Source: an uncultured Bermanella sp.
Lineage (GTDB): Bacteria > Pseudomonadota > Gammaproteobacteria > Pseudomonadales > Oceanobacteraceae
Direction: 5' to 3'
DNA length: 54,007 bases
Assembly: GCA_913058575.1 (NCBI GenBank)
Contig: CAJXRF010000036.1
Coordinates: forward strand, 1-54,007
The notes under the pieces are model-generated. The model was not told the origin of the DNA, did no database searches, and saw only the letters and a list, made by a program, of their open reading frames with translations. This document shows, in pieces, positions 10,434-40,033 of this stretch (within the stretch, counting starts at the first letter, position 1; each line of letters begins with the position of its first letter). Position numbers and translations under genes: made by a program.

Positions 10434-11051
10434 TTATTCCTGAGGCTGTTCTTGAATGCCTAACAATGCATTCATTCCCAGCTGTACAAATTTCATCATA
10501 TCCTGAATGGGTGGGTTTGGCGCAAAATAAGCAAGGGTAACAGGATGGGCCTGTCCAAACAAAATTCTTGCTAAATCACGGGCGCTCAATTGAGAAATCA
10601 TTTGGCCTTTATCTAAACCAGACTGGATAGTTGGCTCTATGATATCTAGCACTTTATCTTGAAACGCAATGTACTTAGGCCAGCTGTCGTCTCTAACAGA
10701 TGCGCTCCACTCTAACCAAATAGTCACTAAATCTGGGTGTTGCTGCGCCATTTTTAAAAAGCTAAAAGCGTGTTTTTGCAATGTACTAACAGGGTTTTTA
10801 AGCGCGCAATCTTGTTGATGGTACTCTTTGGCAAAATCCAGAAAAAAGCTTTCTACTGTTTGTAAAACAGCATCCACTAAATCTTCGCGAGTATTAAAAT
10901 AATTAAAGACAGTGGGCACCGACACGCCACTGGCTTCGGCCACATCAGCATGGGCGGCACGGCCAATGCCTCGCTTGGCAAAGACGTTTACAGCAGCCTC
11001 CAGCAGCTGCTGCCTACGTTGTTCAGGGTTTAAACGGGTACGTGAAGTCAT
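10434..11051 (-). CDS. TetR-family transcriptional regulator
   Basis: The 205-aa protein has an N-terminal helix-turn-helix: residues 15-60 include LLEAAVNVFAKRG and VSVPTVFNYFNTREDL, the diagnostic TetR recognition helix and aromatic patch. The C-terminal helical domain is typical for ligand binding and dimerisation, but the ligand is not identifiable. The gene starts 7 bases after the AraC gene stop and its ribosome site lies in the last codons of that gene. It probably controls its own operon, possibly together with the AraC protein. Confidence 0.92.
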   Translation of the reverse strand: MTSRTRLNPEQRRQQLLEAAVNVFAKRGIGRAAHADVAEASGVSVPTVFNYFNTREDLVDAVLQTVESFFLDFAKEYHQQDCALKNPVSTLQKHAFSFLKMAQQHPDLVTIWLEWSASVRDDSWPKYIAFQDKVLDIIEPTIQSGLDKGQMISQLSARDLARILFGQAHPVTLAYFAPNPPIQDMMKFVQLGMNALLGIQEQPQE

Positions 11052-21410: not shown

Positions 21411-21620
21411 TATTACAAACCCTTCAAAACCTACTTATTTGGTTATTGGTCTAGTGGATGACTTTTGCAGAGCTGTGATCCAGAAGATGGGCAGGCCTAC
21501 ATATATTTACTGTATATTTAAACAGGTGTTAATTCAAGTCAGCCTAGCGTTTATAAGGGGAATTTCAAGCTGCCAAGTAAATGAACTGTGTTAATATGCT
21601 TGACCAAATTTTTAAGACTT

Positions 21621-32202: not shown

Positions 32203-33213
32203 TTAGCCTGATTTTAAATCGACTGGGCTGACAATGCCACGATTGTTGATGCCCACAACGTGGGTGTAAATTTGAGTGGTTTCAATGGATGAATGACCTA
32301 ATAATTCTTGAATGGTGCGTAAGTCGGTACCTTGTTTTAAAAGCTCGGTGGCAAAGGAATGACGGAATGTATGGCAGGTGACGCGTTTGTGTATTTTAGC
32401 TTTTTGAGTGGCTTGTTTAATTGCCCGTTGAATTTGCTGTGCGCCTAGATGATGACGACGTTCGACACCTGTTCTTGGGTCTACTGAATAATGGTCAGCG
32501 GGAAATAAGTATTGCCATGCCAATTCGTATTGCGCTTTTGGCATTTTTCTAGAGAGCGCGTCGGGCATAAATACCCCAGCCATACCAATGGCTTCATCTG
32601 CTTTAAATTGGTTTTGGACAAACTCTATTTGTTGGGTTAACGCTGGCAATAAACTTTTAGGCAGTAATGTTCGGCGGCTTTTGTAGCCTTTTCCCTCCAT
32701 CACCAATAAGCCGCCATTTTTAATATCAACGTCTTTCACCCTGAGGTTAACCGTTTCGGTGATGCGTAATCCGCAGCCATATAACATTTTTACGATTAGG
32801 TTTTTTCGCCCTGAAATGCCATTGATAATTAAATGAGCTTCATCTGTTGATAATACAATGGGGATTTTTCTGGGTTTACTAGCATGCTGAAATGATAATT
32901 GACCGATGTCGATTCTTAAGAACTCTCTAAATAAAAACACTAACGCGTTTAATGCTGTCTTTTGAGTATTAATAGAGCAGCCACGAGCGTTGCCTAGATT
33001 AGATAAAAAATAATTAATGTGATCTACACATAAATCATCTTCACTGGTGTACTTCATATGGCGAATAAATCGCCCTGCCCATTGGCAATAGGTTTTCTCA
33101 GTTGCGTAAGCTAAACCTCGCGAGCGGATAAACAGCCGGTAGCGATCTTTAAGGCTTGTTGATGTGGGCTCTATAGTTGAGCGTATGTCTATAACGGGTT
33201 TTAGATTGCTCAT
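32203..33213 (-). CDS. intI: Integron integrase IntI (tyrosine recombinase)
   Basis: The 336-aa tyrosine recombinase recombines attC with attI to insert and remove gene cassettes. Catalytic residues are R150 (GCGLRITE), K175 (EGKGYKSR), H281/R284 (HTFRHSFATE), H307 (LLGHSS) and Y316 (TTQIYTHV), each offset by four from class 1 IntI1. The integron-specific insert is present: SVDPRTGVERRHHLGAQQIQRA (about 243-264 region), which other XerCD-like proteins lack. The gene is full length. Its promoter overlaps a perfect LexA box, 21 bases upstream. It is transcribed away from the cassettes. Confidence 0.96.
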   Translation of the reverse strand: MSNLKPVIDIRSTIEPTSTSLKDRYRLFIRSRGLAYATEKTYCQWAGRFIRHMKYTSEDDLCVDHINYFLSNLGNARGCSINTQKTALNALVFLFREFLRIDIGQLSFQHASKPRKIPIVLSTDEAHLIINGISGRKNLIVKMLYGCGLRITETVNLRVKDVDIKNGGLLVMEGKGYKSRRTLLPKSLLPALTQQIEFVQNQFKADEAIGMAGVFMPDALSRKMPKAQYELAWQYLFPADHYSVDPRTGVERRHHLGAQQIQRAIKQATQKAKIHKRVTCHTFRHSFATELLKQGTDLRTIQELLGHSSIETTQIYTHVVGINNRGIVSPVDLKSG

Positions 33214-33226
33214 GATGCCACGGCAC

Positions 33227-33268
33227 GCCTACACTGTAATTATATACAGTGTAGGCAGGTATTGATAA
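33227..33268 (-). promoter_or_regulatory. intI promoter with embedded LexA (SOS) operator
   Basis: CTGT-AATTATAT-ACAG (33234-33249) is a perfect LexA box inside 12-bp inverted arms (33227-33238 and 33245-33256). On the minus strand the six bases between those arms read TATAAT, a consensus -10. A TTATCA element (33263-33268), 18 bases upstream of it, can serve as -35. LexA binding should block RNA polymerase directly. Confidence 0.85.
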
Positions 33269-33473
33269 AAAGCTTCAAACTAAAGATAAAAACTGGCTTG
33301 AGAATGGAAATAGAGCCATGAAACACGTCTTAGGACCTTATATTAATAATATGCGACTTAATGACAGCGTATTAAGATATTCAATCACATGATGATAAAG
33401 CAGGGAAATATGCCCAAACGAGCAAATATGCCGCTCAAACTGTGAAAAGTTAAAAAGCTTGTAAAATTAATGA

Positions 33474-33480
33474 GTTAGGC
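33474..33480 (+). other. Candidate attI recombination point
   Basis: GTTAGGC matches the GTTRRRY core exactly, 261 bases from the intI ATG, within the usual attI distance. GTTAAGA at 33640, ten bases before the first cassette ORF, is an alternative that misses one consensus base. I could not locate a convincing cassette promoter (Pc) between 33257 and 33650. Confidence 0.45.
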
Positions 33481-33650
33481 GCGTATAAAATATTAGTTAT
33501 TGTGCATATAGACGCTTAGAAAGGTTGGCCAATTACGTCTGTATGCTTCATTATACGTGGCATTAAAAGGACTGAGTGGCGTTTTTTGTTGCGGCAAGCA
33601 CGTCACCGGACAAAAGCGTCTCGCGACGTAGAATAAACTGTTAAGACTAT

Positions 33651-33962
33651 ATGACTGTCACCTTAGATTCCTGCACAACTTTTGGTCAAATATTGATAGC
33701 TATATCTACGCTTGCGTTTATTACCTTTATTTTCTGTGTTGTAGCATTTGACTACAACGAACGTGAAGGGTGGAAAGCTAAATCTATAGAGAAAGGATTG
33801 CTTTACTTCCTGCCTCTTTACTATCCAAAAGAATCTATAAAATTGGAATACGTAAGCTGGTACCCTATATACAAGTTTTCGTTTATGGTTACCGCTTCAT
33901 CAGTTTTGTTATTATTAATTGGCAGCGGCTTCGGAGAGTTTTGTGATTACTCCAAGTCTTAA
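33651..33962 (+). CDS. Cassette protein 1: two-helix membrane protein, 103 aa
   Basis: I do not recognise a family. The protein has a hydrophobic helix at about 12-34 (ILIAISTLAFITFIFCVVAF), a charged and aromatic middle with ...EGWKAKSIEKG and YYPKESIKLEYVSWYP, and a second helix at about 75-93. Both segments are clear membrane spans. The stop codon TAA is the first part of attC1, the tight packing that marks cassette genes. No good ribosome site is visible, so translation may rely on the cassette promoter context. Confidence 0.65.
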   Translation: MTVTLDSCTTFGQILIAISTLAFITFIFCVVAFDYNEREGWKAKSIEKGLLYFLPLYYPKESIKLEYVSWYPIYKFSFMVTASSVLLLLIGSGFGEFCDYSKS

Positions 33963-34043
33963 CAAGTTTAGCCAGCATAGCCCAGCCAAAAAGACGGCTG
34001 GTCTGGACCTCGCTTCGCTCGGCCGCTGCTAAAGGCGTTATGG
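33957..34043 (+). repeat. attC1 recombination site
   Basis: The ~87-base imperfect palindrome has a TCTTAAC-type left core at 33957 and GTTATGG at 34037. Inner boxes TTTAGCCAGC (33967-33976) and GCTGCTAAA (34025-34033) pair with one bulged base, the asymmetry IntI reads. GACGGCTGG/CCAGCC pairs inside. Confidence 0.85.
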
Positions 34044-39766: not shown

Positions 39767-40033
39767 TTAACCTTCAACGCCAGCAGTGGCAACGGCTTCA
39801 GTTTCAGGTGCTGCTTCTTCCGCTTTTACTTCAGCGGCTTCTGTAGCAACCACTTCAGTGGCTTCAACAGCAGGAGTGGCAACGGCTTCTACTACAGGTG
39901 CAGCTTCAACAGCAGGAGCGGCAACGGCTTCTACTACAGGTGCAGCCTCAACGGCTGGTGCAGAAACAACAGCGTCTTCTCCACAAGCGGTAATGGCAAT
40001 AACAGCTAATACGATGGCTACTTGCTTTAACAT
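39767..40033 (-). CDS. Small Ala/Val/Glu-repeat lipoprotein, 88 aa
   Basis: The signal peptide ends AVIAITACG, a good lipobox with cysteine at about 17. The mature part is built from Ala-Pro-Ala-Val-Glu-Ala-Ala-Pro-Val-Val-Glu-Ala-Val-Ala repeats (14 residues) and has no aromatic residues, so it should be an extended acidic envelope tether rather than an enzyme. The repeats are nearly identical in DNA (42 bases), so the number of units may vary between strains. The gene has its own terminator at 39718-39748. It is preceded by a divergent stretch of ~300 bases. Confidence 0.7.
   Translation of the reverse strand: MLKQVAIVLAVIAITACGEDAVVSAPAVEAAPVVEAVAAPAVEAAPVVEAVATPAVEATEVVATEAAEVKAEEAAPETEAVATAGVEG
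39861..39962. repeat. 42-bp tandem repeat in the small lipoprotein gene
   Basis: Units at 39861-39902 and 39903-39944 differ at a single base, and a partial third continues to 39962. Each encodes 14 residues in frame. Confidence 0.85.

Follow-up and report, generated by a model that had tools for sequence, protein, structure and literature searches.

The analysed window, a stretch of 54,007 nucleotides from an uncultured, probably marine Bermanella sp., carries an integron integrase gene, intI, on the minus strand (32203..33213). Its product of 336 amino acids matches the integron integrase family TIGR02249 at 3.2e-110 (368 bits, cut-off 265), and the most similar solved structure is that of IntI4 (2a3v; 6.3e-72, aligned over residues 10-317). 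The reading frame is open, full-length, and intact; by eye, no clear Shine-Dalgarno sequence precedes its ATG. Upstream of the gene, a leader with attI spans positions 33261..33644 (no strand assigned). The attI region itself is located on the plus strand at 33558..33651, with the core ACGTAGAATAAACTGTTA at 33626-33643, and a similar stretch adjoins intI in relatives, as judged by eye. It is followed on the plus strand by the open reading frame of the first cassette (33651..33962, 103 amino acids, no family match) and by the attC-like element of this cassette (33960..34040), which was recognized by a TAACAA...GCGTTA signature and an inverted inner box. This simple signature was used after three home-made finders proved too strict or too noisy. 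It gave one attC-like element in the array of the window and misses attC-like elements that are visible by eye; therefore, all attC counts are lower bounds, and the size of the array is uncertain. Beyond the cassette region, at 39772-39974, there are 71-nt repeats with 65-73% identity to a reference copy.

A palindrome of 30 bp (33227..33256, no strand assigned) is situated between intI and the leader. Its two arms, GCCTACACTGTA (33227-33238) and TACAGTGTAGGC (33245-33256), are complementary at 12/12 positions and enclose a spacer of 6 nt, which reads TATAAT on the minus strand (33244-33239). The centre of the palindrome is occupied by the LexA box CTGTATATAATTACAG (33234..33249, minus strand), a perfect CTGT-N8-ACAG. 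A first-pass annotation of this DNA had described both the perfect LexA motif inside 12-bp perfect inverted arms and the TATAAT between the arms, and we found both exactly as it had placed them. The TATAAT (33239..33244, minus strand) is the putative -10 element of the intI promoter, which the sequence thus places inside the box. The predicted -35 element, TTATCA, is located at 33263..33268 on the same strand, 18 bp from the -10; the sigma-70 scan reported the pair as TTATCA-18-TATAAT at 33268-33239 with 10/12 matches. As the region contains three promoter-like sites against 1.9 after shuffling, which is no excess, the promoter is backed by its position and not by its score. Two other identities of the palindrome were discarded: a terminator, since no terminator-like site was found in 33150-33700, and a known RNA element, since the window has no Rfam match at gathering score.

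The bare motif CTGT-N8-ACAG occurs three times in the window (0.61 expected; three were reached in 2 of 100 shuffles) and 70 times in the genome, where the reversed pattern occurs 22 times. Hence, the bare motif is just mildly unlikely. For the full 16-mer, we derived a matrix from eight boxes of SOS genes of the same genome (two each of lexA and recN, one each of recA, dinB, an imuA-like gene, and uvrD), with intI excluded. lexA, recA, and recN exceed their family cut-offs, the dinB-like and uvrD-like genes were named from Pfam, and the imuA-like gene scores 141, below the NCBIfam cut-off of 150. On this matrix, the intI box reaches 20.8 bits, the top score of the window and above seven of the eight training boxes; the runners-up in the window score 20.5 bits at 21510 and then 11.3. 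The maxima of random sequence were 16.9 bits in 60 Markov windows and 15.6 bits in 2000 Markov leaders of 150 bp, and none of either set reached the intI box. The full 16-mer box is beyond chance. The strong box at 21510-21525 lies between the divergent genes for topoisomerase III and a 37-kD nucleoid-associated protein. The third bare motif, at 10684-10699, has a GC-richer centre and falls outside the top eight matrix scores of the window.

The draft host genome (186 contigs) has one lexA family match above the cut-off; recA and recN are also present (over cut-off). The encoded LexA aligns over residues 3-198 (1e-83) with solved LexA repressors, which we take to be E. coli LexA, and shares with them an identical RSPNAAEEHLKALARKG stretch, presumably the DNA-reading helix. 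Boxes like that of intI are found in the promoters of the host's own recA and lexA, the latter with two imperfect ones. Three integron integrases exceed the family cut-off in this genome (on C36, C80, and C110), and several split or partial ones were seen on C152, C42, C88, C70, and C31. A LexA box, scoring 17.7 bits, also precedes the C80 integrase gene. On C152, a 13-bp inverted repeat, GTATATACGGACC/GGTCCGTATATAC, was noticed by eye upstream of the split integrase gene (L137:721-750).

Relatives were scanned for boxes over at most 260 nt ahead of the matched start (less where a contig ended sooner), with a threshold of 12.5 bits, the lowest leave-one-out score of the matrix. At this threshold, a box is present in 27 of the 80 relatives scored and in 10 of the 12 nearest. 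The remaining two of the nearest 12 are L003 (4.2 bits; its contig starts about 150 nt upstream) and L006 (12.0 bits), and many of the box-less relatives belong to non-gammaproteobacterial lineages. The nearest named relatives are labelled Thalassolituus and Bermanella.

The first-pass annotation had also singled out the exact nesting of -10 and operator. The nesting is present, but it is not special, as the same arrangement recurs in the host's own lexA promoter and in that of E. coli. The best-scoring -10 has one and the same offset, +5 relative to the box, in intI of the window, in the host's own lexA (TTTACA-16-TATAAT), in E. coli K-12 lexA (TATACT), and in the C80 integrase gene (TATACA). 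The own lexA promoter, ACACTGTATATAATTACA, whose first box is CTGTATATAATTACAA, has a run of 18 consecutive bases in common with the intI box region. Among the box-bearing relatives, 18 of 27 were covered by the -10 scoring. In 11 of these 18, the -10 with the top score falls at least partly within the box; in seven (L001, L002, L007, L009, L010, L016, and L021), it lies outside, and the offset of +5 gives the top-scoring promoter in one (L024). The box is without TATAAT in L001 and L002, which are the two closest relatives. Hence, overlap is loosely shared, while the exact nesting belongs to this genome and follows the layout of lexA; as a conserved feature of integrons, it was rejected. What is striking about the nesting at intI is thus a lexA-type operator layout.

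With high confidence, we interpret the palindrome region as the operator that places a chromosomal integron integrase under SOS control. By covering the -10, LexA very probably keeps intI repressed, and SOS induction would free the gene, because the box holds a putative -10 and scores 20.8 bits, LexA is conserved, and 10 of the 12 near relatives have a box. The SOS-type control proposed in the first-pass annotation is supported by the same evidence, that is, an SOS-quality box, a conserved LexA, and the boxes of the near relatives, together with an intact intI. The simplest reading of the repression is that a LexA dimer on the 16-bp box, which holds the predicted intI -10, would keep RNA polymerase off. 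Upon DNA damage, activated RecA would lead to self-cleavage of LexA, and the intI promoter should open. The IntI then made would act on attI, at a distance of about 400 bp, to recombine cassettes. LexA binding, use of the nested -10, the rise of intI on damage, and the ensuing recombination are steps that we infer from the DNA. The observation is sound, and the switch, which is of a known kind, looks real and correctly interpreted.

The long palindrome looks like the sole odd feature of this operator, and it looks lineage-specific. Past CTGT/ACAG, 7/7 positions are paired at intI, as opposed to 1-4/7 at the eight own SOS boxes, 2/7 at 21510, and 6/7 at the C80 integrase gene. The longest arm run is 12 pairs at intI versus 8 in the other boxes compared from this genome, and it is 7 pairs among the 29 relatives listed, with runs counted for perfect half-sites only. 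The left arm, CCTAYACTGTATA, is common to L001, L002, and L012, and the matching right arm was seen in the window only. The right arm thus seems to be a lineage-specific copy of the left one, and the longer arms are probably dispensable for LexA binding. We lean slightly towards a mutational origin of the long palindrome (not of the LexA box): template switching at a quasi-palindrome would have used the left arm as the source of the right one, and no function would have been added. The distribution of the arms over the three relatives argues for such copying; however, just these three relatives are informative, the closest of them being about 80% identical in protein, and convergence is an alternative. 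A mutational origin of the arms is compatible with the SOS operator.

The 12-bp arms could also be the site of a second regulator or of IntI itself, with the LexA motif incidental or only a part of it. We consider this improbable. In its favour, the probability of seven extra pairs on each side is about 7e-5 by a post hoc estimate, and the next best case, 6/7, is again found at an integrase gene, that of C80. A conserved regulator site would, however, be shared by relatives, and this weakens the reading, since the right-arm extension is missing in L001, L002, and L012 even though the left arm is kept. Moreover, the window contains no second copy of the arm within 1 mismatch, which also rules out the arm as a repeat in the window; within 2 mismatches, there are 5 matches versus 2.9 expected.

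Very improbable is the joint control of the integrase and of a divergent cassette promoter by the single LexA site. The palindrome does lie between intI and the cassettes, but the scan reported no plus-strand promoter-like site at the palindrome, and the C122 array keeps leader and attI but lacks a box, as its highest LexA-like score is 11.5, below the threshold of 12.5. On these two grounds, bidirectional cassette control by the intI box was rejected. In addition, the cassette promoter of V. cholerae is reported to be outside SOS control (PMC3948777). That box and -10 are mere chance consensus matches in AT-rich DNA is extremely improbable: the three bare motifs in the window and the lack of an excess of promoter-like sites would fit, but random sequence never reached the matrix score of the intI box, and relatives have boxes similarly placed ahead of intI.

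A second result concerns the DNA next to the operator. The leader of the window has a copy on C122 (77% identity over 383 bases), which lacks an integrase, and a 60-base copy (87%) on C93. The homology with C122 begins at 33261, directly outside the palindrome. With at most 1 mismatch, the attI core occurs at six sites of the genome (on C36, C93, C122, C28, C48, and C109), while the reversed control gave 0. Five of them are attI-like sites without an integrase (L168-L177): C93:1359-1376, C122:8914-8931, C28:48759-48776, C48:31402-31419, and C109:11277-11294. Those on C28, C48, and C109 have only the last ~100-130 bases in common with other attI sites. Among other genomes, G002 and G005 contain the core twice each and G007 once; G003 also has one copy, but without a visible leader. 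Leader and attI without an integrase are found in the same genus at L146 and L149 (G005 C3:468264 and C3:466077, about 2.2 kb apart) and at L147 and L148 (G002 C10 and C73). The leaders contain near-palindromes, e.g., TTGGATATACGTC/GACATATATCCAA (L147:1247-1276 and alignment A1, columns 110-200).

Each of the nine integrase-less loci has an open reading frame of at least 60 amino acids that begins 6-28 bases past the crossover point, where a first cassette is expected to begin; 878 of 4000 random window points are likewise followed by such a frame. A tblastn search with intI against loci of 2.9-12 kb around the integrase-less sites gave no match, whereas the G007 integrase was found in the control locus. 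Likewise, none of the 11 matches of the genome-wide integrase family search falls on C93, C122, C28, C48, or C109. No integrase-less locus (0/9) has a LexA box of at least 12.5 bits in the 700 nt on its leader side, the C122 site mentioned above being the best. In G002 (89% complete), no integrase exceeds the cut-off; in G005, one does, with 46% identity. By signature, and hence as lower bounds, there are three attC-like elements on C122 and one each at L161, L166, and L167; the signature, which misses some elements visible by eye, found none at C28, C48, C109, C93, and L163.

We tentatively propose, at somewhat less than even confidence, a dispersed integron. The SOS-switched IntI of the window, as the sole integrase-bearing unit, would serve in trans its own attI and the five integrase-less attI sites on other contigs, so that cassette capture at six arrays would be controlled through one LexA operator; attI and parts of the leader, without the LexA promoter, would have multiplied independently in the genus. 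That the IntI of the window acts on the integrase-less sites is our inference. The other integrases (C80 and C110) might serve these sites instead, or the sites might be remains of degraded integrons. The literature listings contained nothing plainly on attI sites without an integrase, and we claim no priority. The description of IntegronFinder 2.0 states that, apart from those of class 1, attI sites are poorly characterized and go undetected (PMC9024848); hence, such arrays would be missed. If the attI sites are served in trans, part of the integrase-less cassette clusters counted so far would be live, damage-gated arrays. This side result may matter more than the operator.

The first-pass annotation had called SOS control of integrases known for Vibrio and mobile integrons, and it is indeed published (PMC3108266). 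In that study, Cambray et al. found that 624 of 1103 integrase promoters carry a LexA box, and LexA repression of intI was shown for Vibrio and for a plasmid integron. Overlap of the box with the integrase -10 is described for V. cholerae and for some mobile integrons. In V. parahaemolyticus, intIA was 9.28-fold higher in a lexA-defective strain, and LexA binding was observed by EMSA (PMC3108266). The locus described here adds one more lineage and agrees with the published view that SOS control of integrases is old and widespread. As with Vibrio intIA and class 1 intI1 (PMC3108266), its integrase promoter contains an E. coli-like LexA box; the locus differs from them in the host lineage, in the perfect TATAAT within the box, and in the longer palindrome. 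As in the Pint/Pc arrangement of V. cholerae, the LexA-box promoter of the integrase faces away from the cassettes, but Pint and Pc overlap in part, and both are CRP targets (PMC3948777). The lexA operators of the host genome and of E. coli K-12 resemble that of intI in that the best -10 begins 5 bases into the box, whereas the host's own lexA operator has two imperfect boxes and intI has a single one with perfect half-sites.
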